Positions 24,395 to 44,667 of a DNA stretch of 44,853 nt are shown here, piece after piece. The stretch covers positions 1 to 44,853 of the forward strand of contig CAMHNQ010000022.1 in the NCBI GenBank assembly GCA_946186495.1, read 5' to 3'. Position 1 is the first letter of the stretch. Each line of letters starts with the position of its first letter. Under the pieces are notes generated by a model. It was not told the DNA's origin. It was given only the letters and a program-made list of their open reading frames with translations, and made no database searches. The position numbers were made by a program, and so were the translations under genes. Origin of the DNA: an uncultured Bacteroidales bacterium. GTDB taxonomy: Bacteria; Bacteroidota; Bacteroidia; Bacteroidales; WCHB1-69.

Positions 24395-24420
24395 ATCGTT
24401 GTTTATCGTTTATGCCTTGG

Positions 24421-24493
24421 AGCCGATAGTCGGACTTGAACCAACGACCGGCTGATTACAAATCAGCTGCTCTACCAACTGAGCTATATCGGC
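24421..24493 (-). tRNA. tRNA-Thr (anticodon TGT)
   Basis: Acceptor GCCGATA pairs with TATCGGC. D-arm AGCTCAGTTGGTAGAGC, anticodon loop TTTGTAA (TGT) and T-arm TTGGTTCAAGTCCGA are present. CCA is encoded at 24418-24420. First tRNA of the operon. Confidence 0.95.
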
Positions 24494-24529
24494 ATATTTT
24501 CAATGAACGTCCCGTTGTTTTTGCGGTGG

Positions 24530-24537
24530 CAAAGATA
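24530..24537 (-). promoter_or_regulatory. tRNA Thr-Tyr-Gly operon promoter (-7 element)
   Basis: Minus-strand TATCTTTG followed by CCACC, preceded by an A7 tract and ATATC. It lies 37 bases upstream of tRNA-Thr. It is near-identical in layout to the tRNA-Met promoter. Confidence 0.68.
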
Positions 24538-24770
24538 GTATTTTTTTGATATGGGCGCATGATTTTTTTGAAAAAAAATCTTATTGAATTCAAATCGTTG
24601 TCAGACAATATGATAGAATATCAAAAAAGTTGCTTTTGGGGGTCTGATGTGCCACGTGAGTCTCTGTGAGAAGGTTGTTGCCTTCTCTTTTTTGGAAGAT
24701 TTTGGAGAAGAAAGTGAAAAAAACGACGTATAGGGAGTGGCGGCCGCGAGGGTCGGGAGAGGTGCTCGGC

Positions 24771-25712: not shown

Positions 25713-25770
25713 ATCGCCAAAATTCGACCGTTAGTAACGTAGAGAACGACTATTTTATTTTTCATGACAT

Positions 25771-25800
25771 AAAAAAAAGAGTACCCTCATTGGATACTCT
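25771..25800 (-). terminator. Terminator of the TonB receptor gene
   Basis: AGAGTACC / GG-A-TACTCT hairpin (25778-25800) with one bulge, followed on the minus strand by eight U. Confidence 0.8.
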
Positions 25801-25825
25801 TCTTAAAATGAAATACGTCGAATAA

Positions 25826-28093
25826 TCAAAACTTCACCCTCACGCCGCCGAGGAAGTTGATGCCGGCCTGCGGGAAATAGTAGGGGTCATAGGAGATTGC
25901 GCCGCCGTAGTAACCCGTGTACATCGCCGCATTGGTCTCGTACTTGGTGTTGAAGAGGTTGTTGACGTTCAGGAACAGCTCCAGGTCCTTCAGCACCTTG
26001 AAGTGGAACGTGTAGGAGAGGCGCAGGTTGGTGTAGGTGTAAGGTTTCAGGATGTAGGTCTCGTCGCCGGAATTGTCGAGGTACTGCTTGCTGACGAATT
26101 TGGTGAGAAGGCTGATGTTGAAGTCCTTCAGCGGGGTGAAGGTGAAGTCGTTGCCTAACACCACATTCGGGGAATAGGCCAACGGAGTGTTGCCGAGTTC
26201 CTTAGCCACATAGCCGCCGTTCTCCCAATCCTCGATGTAGTGCGTGTAGTCGATGACACGGTTCATGCTGAAGTTGCCGTTGATGTGCCATGTGAAGAAG
26301 CGCACGGGACGGTAGGCGAAGGCGAGCTCTATGCCGGCGCGGTAGCTTTTGTCCACGTTCACCATGAGCGGGTCGCCGGTCTGGTCGAGTTCGCCGGAGC
26401 GCACCAGCTGGTTCTTGTAGTACATGCCGTACAGCGTGGTGTTGAAGTAGAACTTGTCAGCATAGTTCGTGTAGCTGAATTCCAAATCGTAGAGGGTCTC
26501 CGGCACCGGCTTGCGGTCGTCGGGGGCGCCCACGAGGTCGTTGCGGGTGGGCTCGCGGTTGGCCGTGGCGAAGGAGAGGTCGAAGCTGTGTTTCAGCTTG
26601 TCGCCCTGCAGGAAGTAGTGCAGCGTGATTTTCGGGTTCAGGAAGGTCCAGTCGTATTTCTGCGGAATCGGGGTCAGCTCGTCGTTGACGCCGGCAATTT
26701 CGTAGTTCACCCAGCGGTATTGCAGTTCGCCGGTCACACTGAAGTTCTTGTACCAATAGCGCAGGTTACCGAAAATCTTGGTCTGCAGCTTATTGCCGGT
26801 GCCGCGATACCATTCGTACATGGGCGGGCATTCCACCACGCGGTCGGGCTGCACCCACACAATGTCGCCGTAGTGCTTGCCGTTGTAGTTGTTGAAGTCC
26901 ATGCCGGCCACCCAGCGCAAGCCCTGCTCCTGGTGGTTCTTGAACACCTGGCTGCCGACAGTCTGCGCCAAAACGCCATAATAGTAGTTGTCCAAGTATT
27001 TCTGGGTGACGAGGTCGGTGCGGTTGAATTCCTCGTGAAGCGGCGTCAGCCCGTATTTGTTGATTTTCTTGTCGTCCTTATACTGCTCATAGTAGCCGTA
27101 GCCCCGGGTGAGATAAGGCATCACCTGCAAGGAGTGGTGCTGCAGGCCGTTGTTGCGCACCCAGTCTTTGACATACTCCAGCTGATAGAAGGTCTGGGTG
27201 TAATGATCATAGGAGTTCTCGTAGTAATGGCGCACGCCGTTCGCGTCGTAGTACTCGCCGCAGGAGTTGTAGGTGCGGTTGGTGGCAAGACTGTCGTAGG
27301 GCACGCCGTTCCAGGCCAACCCTGAGTTTTCCTTGCCGAAGAGCAGGTGGAAGCGCAACTTGCCGTTGTCCTTGTTTTTCTTGAAGTTGTAGAGACTGAG
27401 TTCGGCCGTGAGAAATCCCGAGTTGAGGCGCACGTCGGAGTGGTCGATGAAACCGTCGCTGCGGATGTCGGAGAAGGAGGCGAGCATGGAGAAACGCTTG
27501 CCGATGAGGCCGGTTCCGGCACTCACCATGTTGTGGAAAGTGTTGAAAGAACCGTATGCGGTCCGGGCTTCCGCGAAAGGCTTGGTGGGAATCTTACGGG
27601 TCACGAAATCGACACGGGCACCGTAGGAGGTGCTGCCGTCGGAGGTGTTGGCGCCGCTCTGCAGACTCACATTCTCGATGTAAGCGCCCATGTCAGGCAG
27701 GTTCACTAACCAAGACCCCTGCGACTCGGCATTGTTGATGGTGACACCATTCAGGGTGGTGTTGATACGGGTCTGGTCGATGCCGCGGATGAACAACCCC
27801 GTGGAGCCCAGGCCCATGCCCGATTCGGAGGTCACCACCACCGAGGGCATCAGCTCTAACAGGTTGTTGACACTCCCGTTGCCCTGCTGGGCGCGGATCT
27901 GCGGCAACGACATGGTGGTCACGTTCGCCGCCTTCTGCACTGTGGGCTTGGTGAACTCGATGGTCACCTCCTGCACCGTGCCCTGCTGCAGCGTGTCCGG
28001 CTGTTGCGCGTACAATGCGGTTACAAAAAACAACATCAGGAAAGACAAAACCGCATTCCTAATTCCTAATTCATAATCCCTAATTTTAAACAT
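25826..28093 (-). CDS. TonB-dependent outer-membrane receptor, thiamine-type regulation
   Basis: A 755-residue TonB-dependent receptor. A signal peptide (hydrophobic SFLMLFFVTALYAQ) is followed by a plug domain (about 50-160, with LLELMPSVVVTSESGMGLGS and FIRGIDQTRINTTLNGV) and a 22-strand-type barrel that ends in the usual terminal aromatic residue (VRVKF). The gene follows a TPP riboswitch, which in Bacteroidota marks receptors that import thiamine or its precursors (the OMP-thi type). No inner-membrane thiamine transporter (PnuT) or thiamine kinase is adjacent. The first dozen codons overlap a heptamer repeat array, giving an N-region with acidic residues (RDYELGIRN) that is unusual for a signal peptide; a start further in could be used. 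Confidence 0.92.
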   Translation of the reverse strand: MFKIRDYELGIRNAVLSFLMLFFVTALYAQQPDTLQQGTVQEVTIEFTKPTVQKAANVTTMSLPQIRAQQGNGSVNNLLELMPSVVVTSESGMGLGSTGLFIRGIDQTRINTTLNGVTINNAESQGSWLVNLPDMGAYIENVSLQSGANTSDGSTSYGARVDFVTRKIPTKPFAEARTAYGSFNTFHNMVSAGTGLIGKRFSMLASFSDIRSDGFIDHSDVRLNSGFLTAELSLYNFKKNKDNGKLRFHLLFGKENSGLAWNGVPYDSLATNRTYNSCGEYYDANGVRHYYENSYDHYTQTFYQLEYVKDWVRNNGLQHHSLQVMPYLTRGYGYYEQYKDDKKINKYGLTPLHEEFNRTDLVTQKYLDNYYYGVLAQTVGSQVFKNHQEQGLRWVAGMDFNNYNGKHYGDIVWVQPDRVVECPPMYEWYRGTGNKLQTKIFGNLRYWYKNFSVTGELQYRWVNYEIAGVNDELTPIPQKYDWTFLNPKITLHYFLQGDKLKHSFDLSFATANREPTRNDLVGAPDDRKPVPETLYDLEFSYTNYADKFYFNTTLYGMYYKNQLVRSGELDQTGDPLMVNVDKSYRAGIELAFAYRPVRFFTWHINGNFSMNRVIDYTHYIEDWENGGYVAKELGNTPLAYSPNVVLGNDFTFTPLKDFNISLLTKFVSKQYLDNSGDETYILKPYTYTNLRLSYTFHFKVLKDLELFLNVNNLFNTKYETNAAMYTGYYGGAISYDPYYFPQAGINFLGGVRVKF
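28054..28088. repeat. Heptamer repeat covering the TonB receptor start
   Basis: Five 7-base units on the plus strand: CATTCCT, AATTCCT, AATTCAT, AATCCCT, AATTTTA. On the coding strand the units read as AATTAGG-like and encode part of the signal peptide N-region. Confidence 0.75.
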
Positions 28094-28155
28094 AACTCTA
28101 ACAGTTTGGTTATTAATAAATTAAACACACTGAAAGAGGGATAAGAGAACGTTGT

Positions 28156-28226
28156 GAAACTCCCTACGGCGGCATTATCCGCATCAGGTTCAACGGGTCT
28201 GATCTCAGCCTTCCGGCACCCCTTTC
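28156..28226 (-). promoter_or_regulatory. TPP riboswitch (THI element)
   Basis: The minus strand shows the conserved THI-box blocks in order: GAAAGGGGTGCC, GGCTGAGATCAGACCC, GAACCTGATGCGGATAATGCC, then GCCGTAGGGAGTTTC. It begins about 10 bases after the promoter element at 28237-28244 and ends 62 bases before the receptor start. On binding thiamine diphosphate it would turn the receptor off. Confidence 0.96.
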
Positions 28227-28236
28227 AAAACGGCGG

Positions 28237-28244
28237 CAAAGATA
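28237..28244 (-). promoter_or_regulatory. Promoter of the riboswitch-TonB receptor transcript
   Basis: Minus-strand TATCTTTG followed by CCGCC, with an A6 tract upstream. It is correctly placed just before the riboswitch. Confidence 0.7.
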
Positions 28245-28307
28245 CAATTTTTTCGGGACACTGGAAATTAAGGGAAAAATTTAAGATGGTCCGGGCCGCT
28301 TTAGTCA

Positions 28308-29582
28308 TTAGCGGCCGACGGTCACCTTGCGGACGATGGAGCGTCCGTCCGTGTCGGTCACGGTCAGGAAATAGATTCCCTGCGGGATTCCCTCGACGCT
28401 GATCACGGCCGTTTCCCCTGCCGTCACCGATGTCTGCACCACACGCCCAAACAGGTCGTGCAGGACTACGCGGGCGATTCCAGCCCCGGGGAGTTCCACC
28501 CGGAGATGGTCGTGTGCGGGGGTGGGATAGACGGTAATACGTGGATCCTCCCGTACTGGAACGGCTGTGGGTGAGGATGTCATGCGTTGGTACAGGAAGG
28601 CCTTTGTTATGTTGAAGCAGGCATTGAACTTGCTCTCCACCAATGTGTTGATTCCTGATATGTAGAAACAGTGGCCTTCGCCTTCGAACGGATGCAGCTC
28701 ATAATCCTGGATGCCGAGGGTGTCGAGATGGTGTGCGATGCTGTGCGAGCCGTACATGAAAGGCATCATGATGGAGGTGATGGAGGAGAAACAGTATCCG
28801 GAGTCGTAATGGACGATGTTGTCGTTGGTGCCGTGAATCATGCATAGCGGGACGTAATCCTCCGGGTCGATGATATGGAGGTCTATGACCCCACCCCAGT
28901 GCAGGATGGCGGCGTTAACTTTCGGGGAATAGGGGAAGTGGCTGGGGGATCCTGACTGGTGAAGCGGCCCGAGGTTTGGGGACTCGAACGTCTCGGGCGG
29001 CCGCTCGTCTTCTGTCAGGAACATCTCATGCAGGATGGCGATGGAGCCTGCGGAGTTGCCGAGGAGGAAGATGCGGGAGGTGTCGATACCGTAGATGGAG
29101 CTGTTGGCCTTGAAGAAGCGTACGGCGGCACTGACATCCTGCGAGGCCATGTAGGCTTCGCGGATGAAGGCTTTCCGGCTCAGGGAGAACAGGGGCAGGA
29201 GGCGGTAGTCGATGGCGGCGGCGGTGTAGCCATGGTGTGCCAGCCGTTCGCAGTAGGCCACCATGTCGGAGGCATCGCGGCTGCCGGACACGAAGCCGCC
29301 GCCGAACACGGTGATGACTAACGGGCGGGCGGCGAGGGAGTCCCCGGCAGGTTCGTAAAAGTCGAGGAAGAGGCTCGACGGAGAGGTGGCCCCCGTCGCT
29401 GTGGCGCTGCTGAAGGCAATCCCGTGTGTGGTTTCTATCGACTGGAACACGGGACTGAGATACCGGCCGCCGTCAGGGCTTTGGGCTTTCCCGGATTGCG
29501 GGGCACAGGAACAGCATACAAGCGAAACGATGGTGCATAAGTGCTGCCAGAACAATCCTTTTTTGTGCCGTTTCTTTTCCAT
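28308..29582 (-). CDS. Secreted alpha/beta-hydrolase with T9SS sorting domain
   Basis: A 424-residue protein. A signal peptide, possibly lipoprotein-like (LVCCSCAPQSGKAQ), precedes an esterase domain that parallels the protein encoded at 24771-25712: ITVFGGGFVSGSRD, nucleophile elbow LLGNSAGSIAI, HGTNDNIVHYDSGY and EGEGHCFYI. The last ~75 residues are a type IX secretion C-terminal domain, starting ITVYPTPAHDHLRVE and continuing with LHDLFGRVV, GIPQGIYFLTV and a basic end (RKVTVGR). It is therefore likely exported to the cell surface. The start at 29582 (MEKKRHKKGL) is preferred over 29609 because the promoter element overlaps the latter. It lies 33 bases beyond the rnc stop. Substrate unknown. 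Confidence 0.88.
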   Translation of the reverse strand: MEKKRHKKGLFWQHLCTIVSLVCCSCAPQSGKAQSPDGGRYLSPVFQSIETTHGIAFSSATATGATSPSSLFLDFYEPAGDSLAARPLVITVFGGGFVSGSRDASDMVAYCERLAHHGYTAAAIDYRLLPLFSLSRKAFIREAYMASQDVSAAVRFFKANSSIYGIDTSRIFLLGNSAGSIAILHEMFLTEDERPPETFESPNLGPLHQSGSPSHFPYSPKVNAAILHWGGVIDLHIIDPEDYVPLCMIHGTNDNIVHYDSGYCFSSITSIMMPFMYGSHSIAHHLDTLGIQDYELHPFEGEGHCFYISGINTLVESKFNACFNITKAFLYQRMTSSPTAVPVREDPRITVYPTPAHDHLRVELPGAGIARVVLHDLFGRVVQTSVTAGETAVISVEGIPQGIYFLTVTDTDGRSIVRKVTVGR

Positions 29583-29606
29583 CTTGTTGTCCGATTTCTT
29601 GCGCGG

Positions 29607-29614
29607 CAAATATA
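29607..29614 (-). promoter_or_regulatory. Candidate promoter of the T9SS esterase (-7 element)
   Basis: Minus-strand TATATTTG followed by CCGCG, 25 bases before the chosen start and immediately after the rnc stop codon. Confidence 0.5.
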
Positions 29615-29615
29615 C

Positions 29616-30371
29616 TCAATTTCCAAAAGCAAGCGGTCGTTGTTCGTGATTTTGCTGGGAACAGGGTTGTTCGTCATTGTTTTTGGCATCGGAAGCCAGT
29701 GACGCGAGGGCGATCTCGGCCGCCCGCTGGTCGGCGTTCTTCACGGAGTTGCTGAGGGCTTCGGAGAGCGGTACCCCGTCCATTTCAATGACAGTGCGGA
29801 AAAGCTCTTGATGGGAGTTTGGTGCCGTCTGATGGGTGAAGGCCACCTTGTGGTGGTGTTGTTGCGCCCAGATCAGGAGACGGCTTTTGAAGTCCGTGTC
29901 TTCTTGGAAGATGTTGTCGATGTCCAAGTGGACCAGAAAAATGTTGTTGAGGAGGATGCGAGCCGTCCGTCTGTAGCCTTGGTCGCGGTAGATGGCGCCC
30001 ACCACGGCTTCGAAGGTGTTGCCGGGAATGTTTTTGGAGTTGATGTGCCCGGCGGTCTCCACCATGTCGTGGAGGCCGAGCTTGATGGCGAGGTCGCCCA
30101 GGCGCTTACGGTTCACCAGTTTGGAGCGCATCTGTGTGAGCACTCCCTCCGTTTCGGTGGGGTACTTGCGGCAGAGGAAGTCCGCGATGACGGTTCCCAG
30201 CACCGCGTCGCCCAAGAATTCCAGGCGCTCGTTGTTCTCGCGGTGGCCTAAAGCCGAGAGGCTGCTGACCGAGCGGTGCATCAAGGCCGTGCGGAAGAGA
30301 TTGACGTGGCGGATGCGAAAACCGAAAATGTTTTTGAAATACGTCCGTATCTGCTTGTCGGTCAATACCAT
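29616..30371 (-). CDS. rnc: Ribonuclease III
   Basis: A 251-residue double-strand-specific RNase for rRNA and mRNA processing. The signature NERLEFLGDAVLG is near residue 47, the second catalytic region NTFEAVVGAIYRDQG is near 138, and a C-terminal dsRNA-binding domain follows (about 170-235). It starts 2 bases after the fabF stop, so it is translationally coupled. The acpP-fabF-rnc order is the standard Bacteroidota arrangement. Confidence 0.96.
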   Translation of the reverse strand: MVLTDKQIRTYFKNIFGFRIRHVNLFRTALMHRSVSSLSALGHRENNERLEFLGDAVLGTVIADFLCRKYPTETEGVLTQMRSKLVNRKRLGDLAIKLGLHDMVETAGHINSKNIPGNTFEAVVGAIYRDQGYRRTARILLNNIFLVHLDIDNIFQEDTDFKSRLLIWAQQHHHKVAFTHQTAPNSHQELFRTVIEMDGVPLSEALSNSVKNADQRAAEIALASLASDAKNNDEQPCSQQNHEQRPLAFGN

Positions 30372-30373
30372 AT

Positions 30374-31627
30374 CTATTCTTGGTATCTTTTGTAAAGCAA
30401 GGAGACGTTATGCCCTCCGAATCCGAAAGAATTGGAGACGACCACGTCCACTTTACGGGAGATGGCTTCCCCGGGGATGAAGTTCCAGTTGGAGGGGATT
30501 TGTGCGTCGAGGTGGTCGAGGTTGATGGTGGGATGGACCAGGTTGTCGCGCATGGAGCAGAGGATGGCGACGCTTTCGACGGCGGGGCTGGCGCCGAGGA
30601 GGTGGCCGGTCATGGATTTGGTGGAGTTGATGGCCATTTTGGCGGCGTGGTCGCCGAAGACTTTCTCGATGGCGTGGCATTCGGAGATGTCACCCAGAGG
30701 GGTTGAGGTGCCGTGCGTGTTGATGTAGTCGACATCCTGGGGTTTGAGTTGGGCGCTACGCAGCACGCTGATCATCGCCTGTTGTGCCGCCCGTCCGTCG
30801 GGGTCAGGGGCTACGATGTTGAAGGTGTCCGCCGACATGCCCACGCCGAGGACTTCGGCGTAGATGTGGGCGTTGCGCGCGAGTGCATGGTCAAGGCTTT
30901 CGAGGATGAGCGTGGCAGCTCCCTCGCCCATCACGAAGCCGTCGCGGTCCTTGTCGAAAGGACGGCTGGCGTGCGCGGGGTCGTCGTTGCGGGTGGAGAG
31001 GGCGCGCATGGCGTTGAAGCCGCCCACGGCCAGCTCGATGATGGCCGACTCCGTGCCGCCGGTGACCATGATGTCCGCCTTGTCGATGGCGATGGCATAG
31101 CTGGCGTCAGCGATTGCGTTGGCCGACGATGCGCATGCGGAGGTGGTGACGTAGTTGGGGCCGGTAAAGCCGTGGCGCAGGGCGATGCTCCCCGACACCG
31201 TGTTGGCCAGCACCCGAAGCAGGTGGTAAGGGCTGAAGCGAGGCGTCCGGTCCTGCAGCATGAACTGCTGCACGGCCTCCTCGGAGGAAGTCAGCCCCCC
31301 GATGCCGGTGCCGAACACGACTCCTACCCGGTTCCGGTCAACCTTCTCCATGTCCAGTCTCGTGTCGGCCAATGCCTCGTCGGTGCTGATCAGGGCGTAC
31401 TGTGCGCTGCGGTCCAGCTTCGAGAGCTCCTTGGTGGTGAAATGCTCTGTCGGAACGTAGCCCTTGAGCTCGCACGCGAACTTGGTCTTGAATTTCTCCG
31501 TGTCAAAATATGTAATATGGCTGGCACCGGATTTCCCTTTAAGAAGGTTTTCCCAGTACTCAGCCACATTATTTCCTATCGGCGTCAAGGCGCCAATGCC
31601 GGTTACAACAACGCGTTTGAGGATCAT
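30374..31627 (-). CDS. fabF: 3-oxoacyl-[acyl-carrier-protein] synthase II
   Basis: A 417-residue condensing enzyme of type II fatty acid synthesis, extending acyl-ACP with malonyl-ACP. The catalytic Cys is in VTTSACASSANAI, with histidines in NTHGTSTPLGD and STKSMTGHLLGA. The C-terminal NSFGFGGHN glycine-rich motif is present. The ATG at 31627 is chosen over a GTG one codon upstream. It follows acpP by 27 bases. Confidence 0.97.
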   Translation of the reverse strand: MILKRVVVTGIGALTPIGNNVAEYWENLLKGKSGASHITYFDTEKFKTKFACELKGYVPTEHFTTKELSKLDRSAQYALISTDEALADTRLDMEKVDRNRVGVVFGTGIGGLTSSEEAVQQFMLQDRTPRFSPYHLLRVLANTVSGSIALRHGFTGPNYVTTSACASSANAIADASYAIAIDKADIMVTGGTESAIIELAVGGFNAMRALSTRNDDPAHASRPFDKDRDGFVMGEGAATLILESLDHALARNAHIYAEVLGVGMSADTFNIVAPDPDGRAAQQAMISVLRSAQLKPQDVDYINTHGTSTPLGDISECHAIEKVFGDHAAKMAINSTKSMTGHLLGASPAVESVAILCSMRDNLVHPTINLDHLDAQIPSNWNFIPGEAISRKVDVVVSNSFGFGGHNVSLLYKRYQE

Positions 31628-31654
31628 CACAAACGATTCTTGTAATCGATGATA

Positions 31655-31897
31655 TTATTTGGATGCCATGAGGTTTTCAATGTAGGCGACAGCATCACCC
31701 ACGGTGGTGATTTTTTCAGTGTCCTCTTCAGGAAATTTAATGCCGAAAGCATTTTCAAATTCCATAATCAGCTCGACGGTGTCCAATGAGTCGGCTCCCA
31801 AATCGTTGGTGAAACTCTTATCGGGGGTAACATCAGCCACATCGACACTCAATTTGTCCGCAATAATGGACTGTACTTTTTGTAAAATTTCTGACAT
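31655..31897 (-). CDS. acpP: Acyl carrier protein
   Basis: An 80-residue acidic carrier protein. The phosphopantetheine attachment site is Ser37 in [12 protein letters not shown]. The frame is open upstream, but the start at 31897 gives the canonical [13 protein letters not shown]-terminus, and a promoter element lies 25 bases before it. First gene of the acpP-fabF-rnc operon; it delivers acyl chains to FabF. Confidence 0.97.
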
Positions 31898-31921
31898 AGC
31901 ACTTGATTTTAAAATAGGCGG

Positions 31922-31929
31922 CAAAGATA
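31922..31929 (-). promoter_or_regulatory. acpP-fabF-rnc promoter (-7 element)
   Basis: Minus-strand TATCTTTG followed by CCGCC, preceded by an A8 tract and ATATC. It has the same extended layout as the tRNA promoters. Confidence 0.68.
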
Positions 31930-32000
31930 CATTTTTTTTGATATGGATGAGAAAAAAAAATACCTCGTCCAAGGGACAGGTTCTTCGGGAGTGTTGCCAC

Positions 32001-32030
32001 AAAAAAGAGCCGCCATGGCATGGCGGCTCT
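32001..32030 (-). terminator. Terminator of the giant surface protein gene
   Basis: An 11-base perfect stem AGAGCCGCCAT / ATGGCGGCTCT (32006-32016 with 32020-32030), followed on the minus strand by six U, 20 bases after the stop codon at 32050. Confidence 0.93.
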
Positions 32031-32049
32031 TCCGTGGGATTGGTCAGCT

Positions 32050-35000
32050 TTATTCGCAGTCTTTCACGCACCTTACGCTGAAAGCGCTCTGTCGGGACTC
32101 CATGTTGGGGAGAACCTTGCAGCAGAAGTACTGGAGGCTGAAGGCGTTTCCGTAGGTGTCGCCGTGGAACCATGCGTCGGCGTGCAGGGCCTCGAAGCGT
32201 CCGCTGGCGCCGTTGAAATAGCCGGCGGGCAGTGCGTTGAAGCCTGAGGCGTTGGTGCCGGTGTTGTCCACCCAGTCGCTGTCCGAGCTCAGGGCCTCTG
32301 TGGTGTTGGTCATCAGGACGTTGATTTCCCTGACGGTGGGCAGATGCCATCCTGTTGGGCAGATGCCCCTCACATAGCCGTTGACGCGCTGCGGGTCGTC
32401 GGTGCCGCCAGCCGCGTCATGCCACGTGTAGAGGTAGCCGTATTTCTGGACATTGGCCTCCCCGTCGGGGGAGGTCGCGGTGCTGTAGGCCATGGCGCCT
32501 GCCGTTCGCGTGCGCAGGTTCTCGGTCATCCAGCAGTAGCCGTCAATCTTGGCGACAGGGTAGGTGTTGCCGTCAAGGTCGGTGACGGAGGGCGGACACG
32601 GCAGGCCGGTGCATTCGCTGAACTGGTCGCGCTCCACGATGATGGCGCACTGCTCGTCGTCGCCGTAGGTGGACAACGTGTTCTTGATGAACAGCCCCTC
32701 GAAAGGCTGACCGGTGTTGATGTCGTCGTAATAGGTGACGGTGTAGTGCGGGACGGCTTCCTCCATGACGGAGTAGGTGATGTAGCCGCCGCGCGGGGTG
32801 GTGGCCGGAAGGTTCATGAAAGTGTATCTCCAGCCGCTGTCCGCCGTGATGGCGGTCGTGGCCACGGTGTCGGTTCCGTTGGCGATGAGGTGGACGGTGA
32901 TCTGTGCCGGACGGGTGGAGAGGGCGTTTCTGTAGTCGTCCCAGGCCTTTTCCACTGGGATGTTGACCCGCGCGATACGGCCGTTCCGGAAGATGGGGGC
33001 TCCGCCGTTGCTGTGGCGCTGCGCGTGTACCGTGGCCTCCAGCCGCAGGGTGTCTCCAGCCGGGGTGAGGTAGTAGTCGCTGTTCTCCCCTTCGCCGCCG
33101 GTGACGCGCAGGACGATCTTGTCGCCCTCCACCACCATGCGGACGCTGACCTTGCGGTAGTGTACCACGCCGTCGTAGAGCTCATCGACCATGGTTCCGT
33201 CTTCGCGCGTGTAAGTCCAGGTCCAGGTGGCCGTGCCGTCGTCGTTGAAGACTGCCCCTTCAGGGATGATTTCCCGCACTTCGTACTCGAAGTGGATTCC
33301 GGCACTCAGCTCCTCGTCGGTGAAACCGCTCGCACGCAGTGTCAGGTAGTCGAACGTGAGGCCGTCCGTGGGGTCTTCGTCGTCGTAGAAGCGTACGGCG
33401 TTACCCTCGTTGACGACAGTGACCACGCGGTCGGCTCCCGAGCCGACAGAATGCTTGGGCATCGGGGCACGGTAGGCATTGGCGCCCACGGGTTTCAGCT
33501 CGAAACGGTAGTCGCCGGTGTGCAGGGTGTCCCTCATGCCGACGATGGTGAGCTGCTTGTCGGCCACAATGCGGAAAACCGTGACGGAATCGTTGTAGCG
33601 GTTGGTGAAGAGCGGCACCTCCACAGCGTCGCCGCGCGTGTCCACGTTGTCCACGATGTGGAGGGCGTAATATTTGACGTCCGTGACCTGGAGGGCGTTG
33701 TTGTTGTCTTCCGCCACCGTGATGTCCACCACGTAGCGCTCGGGGGCGTAAGTGACGCCGGTGATACGTTCCAAGCCCGACTCGGTGGCGGTGAGTTCGC
33801 GGATGCGATAGGTGAAGGTCTTCACGCTGTCGCCGGCCATATCGTCCATGGTGAAGGTGATGGGCGCGAAGCCGCCCTGTCGCACGCTGTCGGAGATGAA
33901 CGTGCTGTCCATGGTGATGGTCAGCGGTGCGTAGACGATGCCGTTGAGGACCTTGCGGGCGGCAGGCATGGGCTGGGTCGAGCGCTCGGGGACGAGGGCC
34001 ATGACGAAAGTGTCCGTGGGAAGCCACGGGCGCCCGATCAGCTTCTTCTGAACGAGCGGCAGGTTGACAGTGGTGACCTCCTCCACGTGGCGGTTGGTGA
34101 TACGCACCACATAGTCGAAGTCGCTGTCATCGGACATGACAGCCCCCTGCGGGTAACTCATTTCGTAGCCCGCCGGGACGTCTAACTCTTTCACGGCGTA
34201 GCGGTAGTTCGTTCCGTTCGCGGCCTTGGGCTGCTTCGTCCACACGACAGTGTCCCGGTCGGTGGTGCCGAGGGTCAGCGGACTGCCGATGGGTGTCCAG
34301 TGGATGCTGCCGGCAGCCGAGGTCGTGGCCGGGTCGAACTGGACGTTGTTGTCCCCGGCGGCACGGTAGAGTTGCACGCTGACCTCGCGGCGCAAATGCT
34401 CCGTGTTGTCGTTGTCTTCCCAGGTCTTGATGGCGTAGAGGTCGATGGAGTCCGGGATGTGGCGGTTGTGGACCACCAGCTCGCAGGATGTGCCGCCGTA
34501 TGAGCAGTCGTCATGGACCCCGGTGTTGTCATATTTATATATGGGACTCTCGTACAGGGAGTAGATGATTTCCTCCCCGTAAGAGTATTTCGGCCATCGG
34601 CCTAACGTCTGCCGCCAGTTCTCGGCAGCGGTCACCGTCGCGTGGGCGATGTCCCTGTATTCGGGATATACCTCAATGAGGGTTACATGGACGGCACTGG
34701 GCCGCAGACCGTCGTTGTCGAGCATGTCGTTCCACACTTTCCTGACCGTGAAGTCGATGGAGTCCGGCACGTGCGTGTTGGTGATGACATACCCTTCGTC
34801 CATGGAGCCGGTGACGGTGGTCTCATAGTGGTCCACCGGATCTTCCATGACCGTGTAAGAGATGGGGGTGCCGTTGCGATAGACGGGCAGTCCCGTGAAC
34901 ACGTGGGAGAAGTCGTTCCATTCGTCCAAAGTGACAAACTCCTCGAAAGCGCCGTCCGCGACCAGCCATACCGTGACTTCGTAGGGACGGAGGCCGTCGA

Positions 35001-38000
35001 AGTTGTCGGTGTCGTCCCATACTTTGGTGACGGGGATGCTGGTGAGTTCCGGCACATGCTTGTTGGTCACCGTGTAGCCCGCGACGCTTTGCGTGTAGTG
35101 GTCCGGGGTCTGCGGTTCGGAAAGGGTGTAGCGGATGACGTTGCGGGCTTCGTCATAGACCGGCAAGTCTTTGAAGACAGAGTCCCAGCGGTCGCCCTCG
35201 CCGGTGATTACCATGTCGTAGGTCTGCGAGTAGGGCAGGGCCGTGGTGCCCGTGAGGCGCAGGGTGACGCTCTGCGGACGGTAGCCGTCTTGGTTCTGTA
35301 CGTCTTCCCAGATTTTGGCGACCGGAATATCCGTGTAGGCCTGGTCGATGGTGTTGATGAAATTGTGGAGTTCTTGGACAGTCGAATATCCCTCTACAGG
35401 TCGCTCGACAATGTTGTAGGCGAAGACGTGGCCGTCGGCGTGGACGATGGTGTCACCATCGGTGATGACATCAAAGAGAGGCAGGTTCAGGAAGAAGTAT
35501 GAGGTGTTGCCGTGGGAGAGGGTCACACTGTCGATGTCCTCGCCGTCACGCTGCAGCACGATGGTGATGTCGGGGTGCTGCGTGCCGGCGGAGTCCACCC
35601 AGGTCTTGCGGCCGGTGAGGCTTGTGTAGCTCTGCGCGATGGTGTTGGTGACGGTGTCGGAAGTGGCGTTCACCTCCTTGGTGTAGCCTCTCACCGGACG
35701 TTCGTCAATGGTGTAGGTGAACGGCCGTAGGTCATCGGTGCCGACCGTCACCTTGCCGTTCTTGTAAACGTCGTAGTAGGGCAGTCCGGTGAAAGTGTGC
35801 GTGAGCTGTCCGTGCTGCAGGACCACGCTGTCGTACTTCACCCCGTCGCGGAGCAGCAGGATGGTGATGTCGGGGTGCGTGGCATCGGCCGGACTAATCC
35901 AGCGCTTGTGGACGGTAATGCTGGTGTCTTTCTTCAAGAGATTGCTGTCCAAGGTGTTGTGTACAGTGACATGGTACATGTCAGTGCGGCTGATGTTGTT
36001 GGTGTAGTTTTCCACGGCGTTCTCCGTGATGGTGTAGGTGATGTATCGGATAGAGTGGTATTCATCGTCCACTCTCGCGCGCGGCAGCCCGGTGAAGGAG
36101 TGGGTCCACTGGTTGTCCTCGTTCAGCAGCGCGGAGTCGATGTCAACGCCGTCGGCCCAGAGCTTGACCATGACGGATTCTGGGCGCAGGGCGAGATTGT
36201 CGTTATAATCGACCCACTGCTTGCTGGCGGTGACGGTGGTGTCCTTGACGACACGGTTGAGGAACAGAGGCACGTTGTTCTGGTGGTGTATGCTGGCGAG
36301 ATAGCCTTGGCGGTCCAAGAAAACGGTATCACCGTTGGCCTTGAGGTAGAACTCGGAGTGGATGGGGTCCTCGTCGAAAGTCAGGTGGAGGGTGTCGTCC
36401 TCCCCGATGCCCGTCAGCCTGACGTTGAACTGGCGGAAATGGACGATGCCGTCGTAGTAGGTGGCCTTGCCGTCGCCTGCCATCTTGTAGAGGCCGTTGT
36501 CTAAGTTCACCGCGCCGGCGGGGATCACCTCCTCCATCCGGTATTCGAAGGAGACGCCTTCGAGTAGTACGGAGTCCGTGAAATGGTTGCGCAGGGCGGC
36601 ATGGTCGAAGAGGAGGCCGTCTTCGGCGCTCCGGAAGAACTCGACATCGTTGCCTGTGTTACGGGCGTAACGGTAGCGGCCGGCACCGGTGCCAAGGGTG
36701 TTCGACGGCATGGGTGCGATGGCAGCGTTCTTGCCCACGGGCGAGAGCTTGAATGTGAACTCGTTGTCGTGCAGGACCTCGTTGTCGGTGCTGTACAGAA
36801 ACTTCCTGGCTATGGGCTTGAAGAGGATGGTGTTCGGGTTGTAGGTGTTGACCACCCTCGGGGTGTCCACGAGGTGCGAGACGATCTCGTACCCCTCCTG
36901 AGTGTGGTAGGAATAGACCACCTGTGCCACCAAGGAGTCGTGGGCGCCCTCCATGACCGTGATGTCGACAATGAACGGACTCAGCGAGTAGGACACGTTC
37001 GGAAGCCGGTCCCCGTCGCGCATCTCCGCCGGCGAAAGCTCCCGGATGTGATAGGTGAAGGTCTGTCGGTCGCTGCCTTGCAGGTTGAGGTCCTCCATGC
37101 GGAACGTGATGGGAGCGAAAGTGCCCAACCTCGAGGAGTCCGACAGGGCAGGACTGTAGTTGCTGACGAGGATGTGGTAGGGCAGTTCGTCGTTGTCGTA
37201 ATAGCCCTCGTCTTCCGGCATTGGGTAGCTCCTTATGATGGGTTCCAACGCGAAGAAGAACTGGTCTTCGGGGAACCACTGGCGGCCCCGCAGGATCTTG
37301 ATGGCGTTGATGCTGACATTCACGGGTATCAAGTGCTCATTGGTGACGGTGTCCACATAGCCGTTGGCCTCGTTGAGCAGGCCGCCATGGGCATAGGATA
37401 CCCTGTATCCTTCTGGAACGGGGGTCTCTTTCACCGAGTATTCGATTAACTGGCCGCCGTTGTGGTATTTCGGAAGCCTTCTCCAAACCGCCGTCGCGTA
37501 GTCGGTCGTGGTGTAGATGGAGCGTGTGGAGATGACCTCCGTGCTGAGGTTGTTGCGGAGCTCGAAGGTTACGGTAGTGCGTATCAACTGGGCATTGTTG
37601 TTGTCTTTCCAGTGTTTATAGACGGTCAGCTCGACGGTCTCCGGCTCGTGTGTGTTGGTGACGGTGTAGCCCGAGACATTTTGGCTGTAGTGTTCCGGTG
37701 TCTCCGGTTCGGAGAGGGTGTAGCGGATGACGTTGCGGGCGTCGTCATAGACCGGCAGGTCCTTGAAGACAGAGTCCCACTGGTCGCCTACGCCGGTGAT
37801 TACCATCTCGTAGGTCCGAGAGTAGGGCAGGGAAGTGGTGCCGGTGAGGCGCAGGGTGACACTTTGCGGACGGTAGCCGTCCTGGTCGTGGGCGTCGTCC
37901 CAGACCTTGGTGACCGGAATGTCGATGTAGGCCTGGTCGATGGTGTTGGTGAAGTTGTAGCCGTTCTGCTCGGTGCTGTATCCTGCTACCGGCCGTTCAA

Positions 38001-41000
38001 GGACGGAATAGGCGAAAACATGACCGTCGCCGCTGACGATGGTGTCGCCGGTGGCGGTGAGGACGTCATAGACGGGCAGTTGGCGGAAGTGGAAAAGAAC
38101 GGTGCCGTGCGGCAGGGTCACGCTGTCGATGGCTTCGCCGTCGCGGATCAGCACGATGGAGATGTCAGGGTGCTGTGTGCCGGCGGAGTCCACCCAGCTC
38201 TTCCGGCCGGGAATGCTCGTGTACTCCTGCATGATGGTGTTGGTGATGGTGTCGAAGGTGGCGTTCACCGCCGTGGTGTAGCCGCTGACCGGCCGCTCGG
38301 CGGTGGTGTAGGCGAACGGCCGGAGGTTCTCCGTGCCGACCACCACCTTCCCGCTCTCGTCATAGACGTCGTAGTAGGGCAGTCCGGTAAAGGTGTGCGT
38401 GGTTTCGCCGTGGTGCAACACCACGCTGTCGTATTTCTCGCCGTCGCGGAGCAGCAGGACGGTGATGTCGGGATGCGTGGTGCCGGGCGGGCTGACCCAA
38501 CGCTTGTGTACCACGATGCTGGTGTCTTTCTTCAAGAGATTGCTGTCCAAGGTGTTGGTGACGGTGTAGTGGTATGGGGCGGACTCGTTGATGTCGGTGA
38601 CATAGTCGGTGACGGCGTTCTCGGTCACGGTATAGCGGATGGTGTCCGCGCCGAGTTGGCTGTTGACCTTGGCGAAGGGCAGTCCGGTGAAGGTGTGGGT
38701 CCAGCTGTTGTCTTCCCTCAGCAACACGGAGTCCTTGGCCACGCCATCGGCCCAGAGTTTGACCTTGACGGCGGTCGGGCGCAGGGCGAGGCCGTCGTTG
38801 TAGTCCTTCCACTCCTTGGTGACGGTGACGGCGGTGTCGGCGATGCGGAGATTGCGGAAGAGCGGTACCCTGCCGCGATGGCGCAGCAGGCCGGCTTCGG
38901 AGTCACGGTCCACATAGACCGGGCTCCCGTCCGCGCCGGGGTAGAATTCGGGGAAGAGATGGGCGTTGTTGGTGTCTAATACGATGATATGGCGACCGTC
39001 TGTGGTGTCCATGCGGACGACCAGCTCGCGGTAGTGCACCACGGCATCGTAGTAGGTGTTGATGCCCTCCCGCTTTAGGCTCTTGGTGCCGTCGTCGTGG
39101 TTGATGACGCCTCCGGGGATGACTTCCCGCAGCTGGTAGTGGAAACTGACCCCGTTGATGAGTTGGTTGTCGGTGAATCCGGAGCTGCGGAGGTTGTTGT
39201 GGTTGAAAACAATGGAACCGAAATTGACGTGATGCCCCACGTTCCGGACGGTGTCGGCGCGGTAGATCCCCTCGCCGGAGGTGTTGGACGGCATGGGCGC
39301 GACGGCCGCGTTGGCCCCAACGGGACGCAACTCGAACAGGAACTCGCCGTCTTGTATCGGAGGTGTGCTGACGTGCACGAGGCTCTTTTCCGCAATCGGG
39401 GAGTAGAGGAACTCGGACTCGCTGTAGCGGTTGACGAAGACCGGCGCCGTGACGAGGCTGTCGCGGTCGGGCTTGCCATAGATGCTGATGTCGGCGTGCA
39501 GGGAGTCGTTCGCACCCTGGCTGACGGTGATGTCGATGGTGAAGGTCGACGCATCATAGAAGATGCCGGGGATTCGTTTTTCCCGCCGCTCCTCTTCGGG
39601 ACTCTCTTCGTGGAGGTAGTAGGTGAAGGTCTTGGAGGTGGCGCCGCCGAGGTCATCCAGTGTGAAGGTGATGGGCGGGAAGGCGGTGCCCCGGGTGTCG
39701 GGGGCGACCGTGTCGCTGTTGTTGCGGATGACGATGTCCTTGACGATGAGGTCATCGGACAGGGAGGAGGCATCCTCCGGCATCGGGAAAGTCTCGTCCT
39801 CCGCTTCCAATTCGATGTAGAAGAGGTCTTCGTTGAACCAGTCGCGGCCCACGATCTGCTTCCGCACGTCCAAGGTGACGGTCACGGGGGAGTAGTGCTT
39901 GTTGGTGACGGTGTAGCCCGTCGCCGCGTCGCCAGCGTAGCTCACGGTGTAGTCTGCCGGGACCGAGACTTCCCGGACCGTGTAGACGATGTCGGTGCCG
40001 TTGCGCCGTTGCGGGAGATTCTCCCAGGTGTAGCTCCAGCTGTTGTCCCCGTTCAGGGTGATGGTGTCGCCGCGGGCCGCGCCGTCGGCATAGAGCAGCA
40101 CCTGCGCGGCGTCAGGGCGCAGGCCGTCACGGTTCTCCGCGTCGTCCCACACCTTGGAGACGGACACGCTGGTCTCGAAAGGCGTGTGGGTGTTGGTGAC
40201 GGAAAAGCCGCCAAGACCGTCAATGTCAATTACGTTGGACCGGTATTCGGGGATTTCATCTTCCACAACCGTGTAGATGATTTTATTGCCACTGGGATTG
40301 CGTGCGGGAACATTGTTCCAATTGCCAGACCAATTGTTGCCTTCGTTTAGCGTCAGCGAAGGAACAAGGTCTCCGTCCATGTCAACTGCTGGATTCCCGT
40401 CTGCGTGCAGGTGGACGGTGACGGATGCCGGGCGGATGCCGTCCCGGTTGTTGTCGTCAACCCAAGATTTCGTGACGTTCATGACATCCAGTGCGATCCG
40501 GATCCACTGCGCATAGAGGTCGTTTTGTCCAAACCCGACTGCGACAATTTCTCCTGGGTAGAATCTTTCGCCGCTTCCGTCTTCTTCCGTTGTCCAGTAC
40601 AGGAACTCCCAGCTCTTGTCATTCGGCGAAAAGGCGAGCTTTTCGTCTTTCTCGCTATGGATTGTGTGATCGTAGTTGATGATCAGATTATCAATTTTTA
40701 CATCTCTGTCTTCCGTTCCGTCCGGGTAGCGGCTGTGGTAGGTGACATCTGTTATTCGATTCCCCATCGTATATTCATACTGCGCGATGAGCGTGAGGAT
40801 GCTGTCTTCCGTTCCATCCGACAGGTCGGCCTCTTCACTGTAGTTGATGACGTCACCGGAGCCGTAATAGACCTTGCTGCCGTCTTCGTCTGTCTCTTTC
40901 GCCATCGTGCCGCCGATCGCCCAGCCGGTGAAGACCCATCCTTCTTCCGGTACCGCGATGTACTTCACGGGAGCTTTGGCGCTCGGCGCGTACTTCTGCG

Positions 41001-44000
41001 GATCCGTCACTTCCGTTCCGCCATTTATCGTCCCGTGATCTCCCGCGCGGTATACCACATTGAATCCGCCGACGGGCGCCCACTGCGCTTCGAGGTAGAG
41101 ATGCTGTGTCACCGGCGTATTGAAGCTGAAGGAATCGTACAGCGTTGTATCTGCTGCCTTTGCTCCGTCCGCCGTTCCCTCAAAGGCCTTCCAGCCTGTC
41201 AGCACAAAGCCTTCTCTGCTGGCGTAGGTACGAGTCTCCTCCGCTTCTGCCGGATTCTCCACGGCATCGCCGTACGTGATACCCTCTTGCGTTGTCTTAA
41301 GGGTTTCAGCCTCTCCGGCAGGATTGTACATCCAGTCAACGGTCACCGTATAGGTGTCGCTTTCCCATTCCTTATAGAAGACAAGGTTCCGTGCGGGCAT
41401 CGTTTCCGGGAAGGAGCCGTCCTCTTCCAGATCACCCTTCCAGCCGTCCTTTGCGCGATAGACCACGCCGTTTACATCCCTTATGGTTGTCAACTGCTCC
41501 TTTTTCAGTTCCTCACTATTCGCGATCCAGGTTGTAATGTCGTCAAGCTCCTGCCCGTAATAGACGTGAGTGCAGTCACCCGGTATTAGATCTTCCGCCC
41601 GGTCCTCGTCACGGATTTCCCGTCCGTTCACCCAGCCCGGTCTTTCGGTCTGGCGGAACGTAATGGTATAGGTGACCGGCATAAAGTGCAGGACGATGGG
41701 TACGTCACAAGGCGCACCTGCACTATTTCCGTTCACCCATTTGAACCTATATTCCGTATTATCCGCCAGCGGTCCGCTGCCATATCTGTAATCTGTCGAA
41801 GGCACCGGCGCATATTTTTCATAGCCCGTCACCGCCACCAATTTGTAGCTGTCCCCCCCTTTCCCGATTGTGAACGAATGCGGATGATCGAGGTTGTAGG
41901 TGATAGCCGTTTCTTCTGTTGTATAATCTTCAGCCGTCGGCACGTTATCCAGGATGTCCTGCCAGGTGAAGGCACTTGTGTAATAGCGTCTTACAATCGG
42001 ATACGATTTCTGCCCGCCCTTGCAAAAGACTCTGCAGGTGATCGTTCCGCCGTCACCGATATTACTGTTTGGCTTCACCGGATACGTCATATTGGTGCTG
42101 TTGAACACCGCCTGTCCGGTGCCAAACTCATCTTTATTAAAATACCACGGTGCAGTGCCCAGAAACGCATCAAACATGTCTCCCTGACTGTCGGAAAAGT
42201 TGTGCGTGCGCTTGCCCAGGTGCTGTCCGTATTTGATCGGCAGCGTCGGCAGCGTAACATCTCCGTAGCCGTCGGGCGCAAGCGTCTTACCGTTTGCGTT
42301 CAGCGTCTGGCTGCCATTAATATCTGTGATCATGTAGTTTATGCCATTATTGTAAAACGCGAACTTCAGATTGTAGGTATCGCGGCTGTAGTAGACGCGC
42401 ACCACCGTGGAGCCGTCGGGGTTGACGGTTGCGGTGTAACTGTTGTCCGTCACATCATCAACGTCGTATTCTGCCACCGCGCCCTTGCTGTCCGTGATCT
42501 CATACGTACGACGGTTGTCGGAAAGCTCTAATTCAACGCCGGACGGATTCTTTTCATAGTCATACGTCCTGTTCAGATGGAAGTAGCCGGGATCATCCTT
42601 TTTCTGGTATTTATTGCCGGGATACTTTGCAAGGATCTGATCCATCGGGATCCGGCCGTCCGCCTCTGCCGTAAAGCTATCGTCCACCGCATACCGGGTA
42701 TAGCCGGTATCATTTGAGTTTTCCAGATAGACCTCGACCGTGATCTGAACGTTCTGCGGGATCCACTTTGCGTAGAGGGTGAACTCCTCCGGATCTGTCG
42801 ATGTCAATTCCGTATCGAAATCATATTTGTCACCTTCCGAAAATGCTTCGTCAAGGTTTTCCTTGCTGCCATCATAAGCGGTATACCAGCCGTCGAATTT
42901 GTAGCCGTTGTAGACACTTCCTTCCTCGAAGATGGCGGGGCTTTCCACCTTTTCGCCGTCCAGTACCTTCTGGTCGGGAATGGTATAGTCCTCAAAGTTC
43001 TCGTTGACCTTATCGAAGTGCACCGTGTGCGCCGCCGCAAACGTCGGCACCAGCTCGATGTCTGCGCCGCTTACGCTGATCTTATTCTCTTCGGTCACCT
43101 GCGGGCCGTTTTCGTCAACGTTCTTCCAGCCGGTCATCTTCTGTCCGGCGGGCACGGCAAGACCATCTGCTGTCGCATTCTCTGGCGTGGGAATTTCCAC
43201 CTCCCCGTTCTCTGCCACTATTACATCATAGACGAGGCTTCCTTCCGCATCCCCATAGAGCGTGATCGTGTACTGCGTGTCAAATTTCGCCATAACTTTG
43301 ATGATCCTGTCCTCAGTTGCAGCTCCCGTAGCCGTTTCAGTGGCGGGGTCGATGGTGACCACGCCGCTTTCCACCTTTTCATCCGTCATGTTTCCGGCCT
43401 CATCCATTATGTACCATCCGGCAAACACATGTTTGGCATCGCCTGCAGGATTTACCGGTACCGTGAGAGTGTCGCCGTCACGAACAATCAGTTCATCGAC
43501 TTTAACCTCTTCCACGTAAAAAGTATAGAAGTGCCGCACATACTTCTCCACGTCCTCGTCGTTGTAGGTCTGTCCCACGATGCCATACACCGTGAAGTGG
43601 TTGGTGTTGAAGATGGAGGCTTGGGAGGCCGCGCTGGCGATGAGGGTGGCGTTGCCCTCGTCGTCGATGGTCACCGAGTGGTGGCTGTCGCCCGCGATCT
43701 CGCGCTTGGCGGTCAGCTGCACGAAGACCTCCCCTTGCGGCTGCACCTCCTCGCCCTCGTGCCAGAAGGTGATGTCGGCCGCCAATGCGTCGGTGGCCTC
43801 GCCGCCGCTGCCGTTCACCGCCGCCAAGGCGTAGTCCGAGGCCACCGGTTCCACGCGCATCTCCGTGCCGTAGGGGAACACCCCCGCGTCGGCCGCCGCG
43901 AAGACCTTCAGCTCGTCAGTCTCGCCCTCGAAACGTGCCTTCGGACAGTCTATAGCCTCCGCAGCCGCCATTTCGGGCTCGCCAACCGCTTCCGCCATCT

Positions 44001-44343
44001 CCGCGCCTTCGGCGGCAGGTTCATGGGTCTCCCCCTCGTTGCTGGCCAGCAGCCGCTCCTGGCTGCCGTTAAGGCTAAAGTTCACGGAGGGGGTCGGCTG
44101 GGCGGCTGTCTGCCGCATCACCGCCTCCAGGTATTGCTGGAAACGGATTGCCCCGTTCATGGCATAGCAACGGCTGTAGGTCGCGCGTGCCAGCTTTGCC
44201 TTCGGCGTTGAACCGCAGAACCAGCTGCACTCGATCGGCTGCTTTGCTAATTTGGGCAGTTTCAGCTTGATGCGTTCCTTCTGGAGCGGAAGTCCTGAGA
44301 AAAACAGCAATGTCATCAATACGATGGCGTAAATCTTCTTCAT
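32050..44343 (-). CDS. Giant surface protein: InlB, Cna_B and pilin-type domains plus FISUMP
   Basis: A 4097-residue uninterrupted protein. Approximate order: Sec signal peptide (1-20, no lipobox); a unique Cys-containing segment and an Ala/Glu-rich stretch; a domain ending [12 protein letters not shown] (130-260); InlB-type beta-repeats with W-G/A-W-containing units such as [20 protein letters not shown] (280-1285); two Cna_B domains; a pair of FctA/Spy0128-like pilin domains (1485-1832); five Cna_B; a second pilin pair (2340-2692); seven Cna_B; a third pilin pair (3420-3788); one Cna_B; and a C-terminal FISUMP domain (3898-4097, with [30 protein letters not shown]). Cna_B units show Lys in VTKxW, Glu in YTVxE and Asn in VTNT, the residues that form isopeptide bonds in this fold. 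It has no LPXTG and no T9SS tail. Probably a very long adhesive stalk on the cell surface; the ligand is unknown. Confidence 0.88.
34760..39890 (-). repeat. Internal tandem duplication in the giant gene, about 2.6 kb
   Basis: The block of one pilin pair followed by Cna_B domains occurs twice in tandem (about 37330-39890 and 34760-37325). A 42-base stretch is identical at 35918-35959 and 38516-38557, an offset of 2598 bases. Another pair (35131 and 37723) is offset by 2592 bases. The copies match domain by domain, for example KKDTSI and VIRYTLSEP segments. A third, more diverged pilin pair lies at 32980-34085. Confidence 0.85.
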
Positions 44344-44420: not shown

Positions 44421-44428
44421 CAAAAATA
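44421..44428 (-). promoter_or_regulatory. Candidate promoter of the giant gene (-7 element)
   Basis: Minus-strand TATTTTTG followed by C, with an A10 tract just upstream and a TTG at 44446-44448 at a 17-base spacing, slightly short. It lies 78 bases before the start codon. Confidence 0.55.
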
Positions 44429-44499: not shown

Positions 44500-44508
44500 G
44501 CCACAGCC

Positions 44509-44541
44509 TATAGATTGCTTATAGATTGCTTATAGATTGCT
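44509..44541. repeat. 11-base tandem repeat, three units
   Basis: Three perfect copies of TATAGATTGCT at 44509, 44520 and 44531. It lies upstream of the giant gene's promoter. Confidence 0.95.
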
Positions 44542-44550
44542 TACAGGCTT

Positions 44551-44593
44551 ACTATAGATATACTCTTGAGTAAGGGTAGAGTATATCTATAGT
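44551..44593. repeat. 15-base perfect inverted repeat
   Basis: ACTATAGATATACTC (44551-44565) and its exact complement GAGTATATCTATAGT (44579-44593) surround a 13-base loop. It has no U-tract on either side, so it is not an ordinary terminator. It may be an operator or an RNA structure in the 3' region of the upstream gene. Confidence 0.9.
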
Positions 44594-44667
44594 AAGGGTG
44601 AAGGCAGGGTGAAAGCAAGGAGAAGGCTTGTTTGGGCGATGCAGAAGCCGTTGTCTGGGGGGGGGTG

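Follow-up and report, generated by a model that had tools for sequence, protein, structure and literature searches.

Among the stalk domains recognised in fibrillar adhesins is Cna_B (PMC8286594; all papers are cited by PMC number), and in Gram-positive adhesins such as the B region of Staphylococcus aureus CNA (1d2p/1d2o) it occurs in tandem with a Lys/Glu/Asn triad. In this study, we analysed a protein of similar build from a Gram-negative lineage. The protein, referred to as the giant, has 4097 residues and is encoded at 32050–44343 of a 44,853-nt stretch of DNA from an uncultured Bacteroidales bacterium (contig CAMHNQ010000022.1 of assembly GCA_946186495.1); this whole stretch is called the window. 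The giant shares tandem triad-bearing Cna_B domains with the Gram-positive adhesins, which differ in their hosts and, in an example from Lactococcus, in being anchored through LPNTG. Pilins of the Spy0128/FctA type (PF12892, TIGR03786) resemble a second unit of the giant, the Fa–Fb pair, in consisting of CnaB-like domains with their own triads. In contrast to these pilins, the giant and its homologues embed one to five Fa–Fb pairs per chain and no sortase was found, and a whole Fa–Fb pair reaches the solved pilin 3gle at an E-value of 0.088 only.

Isopeptide-bonded surface proteins have also been described in Bacteroidota. Mfa5 of Porphyromonas gingivalis is one of them, for which its authors argue for horizontal transfer from Gram-positives (PMC7835359), but it differs from the giant in having one CnaA-like bond, a von Willebrand factor (vWF) domain, a tail for the type IX secretion system (T9SS) and a position at the tip of a type-V fimbria, and it has no giant Cna_B/FctA stalk. 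A global survey reports a significant number of isopeptide proteins in Bacteroidota, with T9SS tails among the co-occurring domains, and describes CLIPPER/DUF11 and other Gram-negative proteins which, like the giant, carry tandem isopeptide domains in long surface proteins (PMC12617251). CLIPPER is, however, a different domain family, and the survey proteins often carry Por_secre_tail or CHU_C, whereas the giant has neither. The models of that survey comprise at most 1280 residues, which places the 4097-residue giant outside it, and the term Fib_succ is absent from its main text. For the C-terminal FISUMP domain of the giant, two comparisons are available. Proteins of the same family (TIGR02145) are found in Fibrobacter, where one is regarded as a putative cellulose-binding protein and possible cohesin analogue, with no isopeptide stalk mentioned in the sections concerned (PMC4704652). 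Legionella Lcl is attached to the cell by its N-terminus and presents, at the end of a long stalk, a C-type-lectin-like DUF1566/Lcl_C domain that binds glycosaminoglycans (PMC11162425); the FISUMP domain of the giant appears to be distantly related to this domain, while the stalk of Lcl is trimeric and collagen-like, unlike that of the giant.

A preceding sequence-only reading of the window had regarded the giant as the strongest candidate for an undescribed system. This was too strong, since isopeptide proteins of Bacteroidota and Cna_B stalks have already been published (PMC7835359, PMC12617251, PMC8286594). What we did not find in print is the combination of an InlB/Cna_B/FctA stalk with FISUMP: in the open-access literature, no publication turned up that pairs FISUMP with isopeptide domains or that reports such proteins from rumen Bacteroidales. 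We consider the giant to be probably a fibrillar adhesin made of one chain that is hardened by isopeptide bonds, with FISUMP as its tip and a stalk that reached the lineage by an old transfer from Gram-positives.

Domain architecture of the giant protein

The giant gene occupies the minus strand, on which all features of this section lie, and is a single frame without interruption. From N- to C-terminus, the protein is composed of an N-terminal domain, five InlB-type repeats, 15 Cna_B domains together with three Fa–Fb pairs of FctA/Spy0128-like domains, and FISUMP. It begins with a hydrophobic, signal-peptide-like stretch, read by eye (residues 1–21, 44281–44343). The conserved N-terminal domain (residues 125–262, 43558–43971) is common to the homologues C97, G312 and G299a and has no relatives in plasmids or in the PDB.

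The stalk proper starts with Cna_B 1–2 (residues 1287–1482, 39898–40485; triads K1292/E1361/N1384 and K1397/E1458/N1481), followed by the first Fa–Fb pair (1492–1836, 38836–39870; K1495/E1579/N1638 and K1653/E1740/N1831). Cna_B 3–7 (1835–2336, 37336–38841), in which every triad is complete, lead to the second pair (2336–2700, 36244–37338; K2349/E2435/N2499 and K2514/E2605/N2696), and Cna_B 8–14 (2700–3418, 34090–36246), again with every triad complete, to the third (3427–3792, 32968–34065; K3433/E3516/N3581 and K3596/E3691/N3787). A last domain, Cna_B 15 (3791–3889, 32677–32973; K3799/E3861/N3888), precedes the cysteine-rich FISUMP region (about 3906–4097, 32053–32628). In the Pfam scan of the whole protein, Cna_B (PF05738) was found in 15 stretches with an E-value of 1.9e-225 and 730.5 bits, and in a six-frame search all 15 places of the gene scored above the Pfam cut-off. 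FctA (PF12892) gave four stretches at E up to 1 (E 1.7e-35, 122.8 bits against a cut-off of 22.1), of which just two places exceed the cut-off one by one in the six-frame search, and the streptococcal pilin isopeptide domain TIGR03786 of NCBIfam reached 36.5 bits against 31.85. The remaining FctA-like domains were assigned via the alignment of Fa–Fb pairs, and the three pairs as well as the 15 Cna_B domains were resolved by models made from the giant's own sequence. FISUMP is recognised by Pfam as Fib_succ_major at residues 3932–4094 (E 3.7e-20) and by NCBIfam as TIGR02145 (E 1.3e-25, above cut-off).

The sequence-only reading had listed InlB-type repeats, about 15 Cna_B domains with the isopeptide pattern, three FctA/Spy0128-like pairs and a FISUMP C-terminus, and had proposed a domain search for these families. 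With significant matches to Cna_B, FctA and TIGR02145, its observation is confirmed and is stronger than stated. The InlB-type repeats hold in part. An iterated model finds five, at residues 269–357 (43273–43539), 437–530 (42754–43035), 996–1091 (41071–41358), 1094–1192 (40768–41064) and 1196–1282 (40498–40758), the fourth with a weak match (iterated E-value 7.5e-4), but Pfam backs the second alone, and barely, with 27.2 against a cut-off of 27 in a scan restricted to the N-terminal part and 22.7, below this cut-off, in the scan of the whole protein.

Isopeptide triads

When the 15 Cna_B domains are aligned, Lys, Glu and Asn each have exactly one invariant column, and these three columns form the triad. 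It is complete in all 15 Cna_B domains and in all six FctA-like domains of the giant. We predict 21 isopeptide bonds from these residues. Lysine accounts for only 72 of the 2603 stalk residues, yet it is present at all 21 bond positions, so that a composition effect does not explain the pattern. Both triads, i.e. six residues, are also intact in all 14 Fa–Fb pairs from four genomes, namely three of the window, one each of its paralogues C97 and C81, one of G312, three of G299 and five of G330 (13 of these enter the pair alignment, while the fifth of G330 was left out and checked separately). Among 92 Cna_B domains of homologues, Lys is found in 92, and Glu in 90 with Asp in the other two; 80 have the full K-E-N triad, two have K-D-N, and ten are pieces that end before the last strand, for which Asn was seen by eye in the following last strand in ten of ten.

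The nearest solved relative is the CNA B region of S. aureus (1d2p, E 2.4e-59). Counted by hand along the alignments, K1397/E1458/N1481 align with Lys633/Glu694/Asn717 of 1D2O, the residues given for this structure in Table 1 of PMC12617251, with N1481 and Asn717 in register in the 1d2p alignment and one place off in the 1d2o alignment. We call the stalk stiff because Spy0128 domains were found inextensible by atomic force microscopy in work cited in PMC12617251.

Stalk organisation and homologues

The stalk units follow a regular order. Fa is followed by Fb and then by Cna_B in 14 of 14 pairs, and the end Fa–Fb–Cna_B–FISUMP is found in each of the four proteins with an available C-terminal end (window, G330, G312 and G299b, the sequence of the last being cut inside FISUMP). 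Frame length varies from 3639 residues in G312 to 4097 in the window and 5706 in G330, the latter with 36 Cna_B domains and five Fa–Fb pairs. For the window stalk, a length near 100 nm is estimated from typical domain sizes. Within it, residues 1495–2309 and 2349–3170 form a block duplication with 53.7% identity, also visible in the DNA as a period of ~2.6 kb. These observations show that the stalk lengthens by duplicating blocks or adding units.

Two further Cna_B/FctA giants are found on contigs C97 (L011) and C81 (L012) of the same genome. Both are cut in the same repeat, ending VTNVHTPDSVDLVLLK, which indicates that the assembly breaks there. The C81 giant differs at its N-terminus, which by eye looks similar to Lcl_C-like stretches found in its neighbours; the adjoining gene (L012 4397–7000, minus strand) ends in an Lcl_C domain (E 5.9e-10), and a profile of four Lcl_C-like stretches matches the solved hypothetical protein 4eps (E 1.9e-7). 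The G330 homologue, on contig C2, consists of the frames 12876–29993 and 29997–32588 with one in-frame stop between them, which may reflect a pseudogene, a sequencing error or two genes.

Export signals and the role of FISUMP

As a fibrillar adhesin, the giant would enter the periplasm via its N-terminal signal sequence, and in each of the 15 Cna_B and six FctA-like domains a Glu-assisted Lys–Asn isopeptide bond would join the first and last strands. The welded stalk would then behave as a rod resistant to stretching and proteolysis, and FISUMP, as a putative distant relative of the C-type-lectin-like Lcl_C, would constitute a ligand-binding tip, probably for polysaccharide. The long stalk of repeated stalk domains is a fibrillar-adhesin feature that is present. 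FISUMP is a candidate adhesive domain via its distant link to Lcl_C: seven of the 14 FISUMP domains compared match Lcl_C with E-values of 1 or less, the lowest being 1.6e-5. Among the targets listed for diversity-generating retroelements (DGRs) is Fib_succ_major (PMC4159848), and DGR targets of Bacteroides phages have been assigned the C-type lectin fold (PMC8143477). Diversification of the giant's own FISUMP by a DGR was considered and rejected, its genome having one partial reverse-transcriptase match at 24 bits against a cut-off of 29.6. A viral contig (L122) encodes at 4608–5534 a 308-aa protein ending in FISUMP; none of the four open reading frames scanned at this locus is a reverse transcriptase, and its direct repeats fall outside the FISUMP frame.

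Several points weigh against this reading. The giant has no LPXTG-like motif in a pattern search of the protein, no type-A or type-B C-terminal sorting domain of the T9SS at E up to 1 in Pfam and NCBIfam, and no lipobox at its N-terminus by eye. Its own FISUMP matches Lcl_C weakly (E 0.014, 16.1 bits against a cut-off of 34.9), and comparison of the FISUMP profile by hhalign with the four Lcl_C-like stretches, of which just one is Pfam-supported Lcl_C, gave a probability of 29.6% and an E-value of 5.7e-4 over 23 columns, while FISUMP found no match in the PDB. FISUMP is moreover the best conserved of six modules, with 61.5–71.4% between species compared to 47.7–64.9% for the N-terminal domain, and the adhesive end of Firmicutes fibrillar adhesins is the N-terminus (PMC8286594). 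Finally, the case for transfer is drawn from distribution, as described below.

A possible though less probable explanation is that FISUMP is a C-terminal sorting or attachment part in the position of LPXTG, with exit by the T9SS or another route and with the N-terminal domain and InlB-type repeats as the binding end. The genome of the window encodes SprA (2398.7 bits) and 74 matches to the type-A T9SS tail, 73 of them above cut-off, by which we judge a T9SS to be present, while the giant itself has no recognised T9SS tail or LPXTG and, by eye, no lipobox; in the Lactococcus relative, LPNTG lies about 30 residues past the last Cna_B, where the window protein has FISUMP. The location of FISUMP in other proteins is consistent with such a role as well. 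In the window's genome, 22 of 27 FISUMP domains end within seven residues of the stop (among the five exceptions, three are upstream copies whose frames have a further FISUMP at the end), and by coordinates a type-A tail is found in none of the 24 FISUMP frames. A precedent exists in Mfa5, which is said to have retained traits of an ancestor from Gram-positives while acquiring a T9SS tail (PMC7835359). High conservation of FISUMP, a further argument for this explanation, would fit either a binding or a sorting and anchoring role.

On the other hand, FISUMP is present in three of seven genomes that have no SprA (four copies in G008, one in G059 and seven in G106). We further sampled 40 FISUMP proteins from 39 genomes, picked from the best-scoring rows of a longer list with one per genome and two for G069. 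Two have an open 3' end, and 34 of the 38 with a closed 3' end finish within ten residues past FISUMP. Two proteins with internal FISUMP, whose ends were the two scanned among the 40, carry separate T9SS tails, L085 of type A and L098 of type B. A role of FISUMP as obligate T9SS signal was judged less likely in view of these tails and of the genomes lacking SprA. A crude lipobox rule marks 14 of the 40 as lipoprotein-like, with L087 and L114 looking wrong and at least five missed by eye (L082, L086, L092, L099 and L113); in such frames, held by the N-terminus, the FISUMP C-terminus would be the free end. FISUMP also occurs in phage or viral contigs. Taken together, we regard FISUMP as a tip to be about twice as likely as FISUMP as a sorting part.

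FISUMP is frequent in the order, occurring in 90 of 119 sampled genomes, and the window's genome encodes other giants ending in it, with 7911 aa on contig C5, 6070 and 4336 aa on C20 and at least 1836 aa on C64. Where looked at, their stalks are different, the 6070-aa protein having InlB-type repeats, MBG and HYR_4C.

Distribution and origin of the stalk

Six-frame family searches of 295 sampled genomes of the order found Cna_B in one genome and FctA in one genome, in both cases the window's own. These samples contain just four genomes of the window's genus, without the three other carriers, and the loose first pass of the search loses sensitivity, since the own genome gave three FctA places in place of the four found when it was searched alone. 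With the stalk as query, matches were obtained in four of 104 genomes of the family, including that of the window, and all four belong to one genus. When 84,980 named species genomes were scanned for the pattern, four loci came up, distributed over three records, all labelled Bacteroidales bacterium, from yak abomasum (RGIG9320), from reindeer (Reindeer_1_mag_206) and Tb.RUG.140. The scan was built on five Fa–Fb pairs because the 13-pair profile was too divergent, and would therefore miss distant relatives. In a pattern scan of viral contigs, no relative of the Fa–Fb pair was found, and a phage origin was rejected.

In tblastn searches of plasmids, 83 records matched the stalk. Ten genera were named, all of them Gram-positive and mostly enterococci and lactobacilli, with four more not named, and identity was about 30–34% in the 15 best of the 83 rows. 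The giant gene has a GC content of 0.59 and a third-position GC content (GC3) of 0.79, both inside the range of its neighbours, so that recent transfer was rejected on base composition and only old transfer is compatible. As the simplest reading, we infer an old lateral transfer of the stalk from a Gram-positive source into one genus, after which it would have taken on the base composition of its host.

Neighbouring genes

Upstream of the giant gene lies the 3' end of a second gene that is cut by the contig edge (44738–44851, minus strand); its product finishes with the same residues as the giant, SVRCVKDCE. Between these two FISUMP-type genes we observed AT-rich short tandem repeats with periods of 11 and 22 (44508–44599), and upstream of the giant gene the octamer TATTTTTG (44421–44428, minus strand), which we take to resemble the Bacteroidota -7 element. 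A thiamine pyrophosphate (TPP) riboswitch (28143–28233, minus strand, 66 bits) is located directly upstream of a TonB-plug gene (25826–28093), which suggests thiamine uptake for the latter. Two BD-FAE-type esterases are encoded at 24771–25712 and 28308–29609 (minus strand), one of them with a T9SS tail, and by eye a similar-looking protein adjoins the G312 giant.

Discussion

We propose a model in which a Gram-positive type of stalk, welded by 21 predicted isopeptide bonds, carries FISUMP at the end of a single chain. The sequence-only reading had inferred a single-chain hardened stalk that does the job of a sortase pilus without sortase. Of this, the single chain, the complete triads and the lack of a sortase match in the assembled genome stand, the last from a search for PF04203 with no match in an assembly that is 92% complete, compared to matches in three of 14 control genomes. 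The part that was not upheld is the function, i.e. doing the job of a pilus.

A wider version of the sorting explanation can be put forward as a speculative one. In one genus, known from ruminant-labelled assemblies, a Gram-positive stalk of the pilin/MSCRAMM type (MSCRAMM, microbial surface component recognizing adhesive matrix molecules) would have been rebuilt into giant welded rods, with FISUMP replacing LPXTG as C-terminal surface-display module, and these proteins together with the other giants ending in FISUMP (4336, 6070 and 7911 residues) would use an undescribed route to the surface. It appears improbable, by contrast, that the giant builds or becomes part of a fibre of several subunits, a true pilus in which Fa–Fb would provide polymer contacts and not only stalk: the Fa–Fb pairs are pilin-like, judged by TIGR03786 and by the marginal match to 3gle, but neither sortase nor an LPXTG-like motif was found and length varies inside the single chain. 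That a Gram-positive gene entered a mixed bin by contamination or assembly error is very improbable, as the draft nature of the assembly (130 contigs) and the identical break of C97 and C81 are outweighed by Omp85, MreC, a TonB plug domain and a T9SS-tailed esterase on the same contig, by base composition within the range of the neighbours, by the in-frame fusion of Gram-positive-type domains to FISUMP and by relatives of the giant in three other assemblies.

For the proposed adhesin, the question arises how a welded rod that exceeds 4000 residues and may be unstretchable gets across the outer membrane, for which either export before folding or a pore that takes folded rods would be required. 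FISUMP, a domain common in the order, here belongs to a structure for which either a binding tip or an anchor is to be expected. Our results suggest that Cna_B and pilin-type domains, the mechanical equipment of Gram-positive adhesins and here the site of 21 predicted bonds in one chain, can move to and persist in a Gram-negative lineage without a detected sortase.

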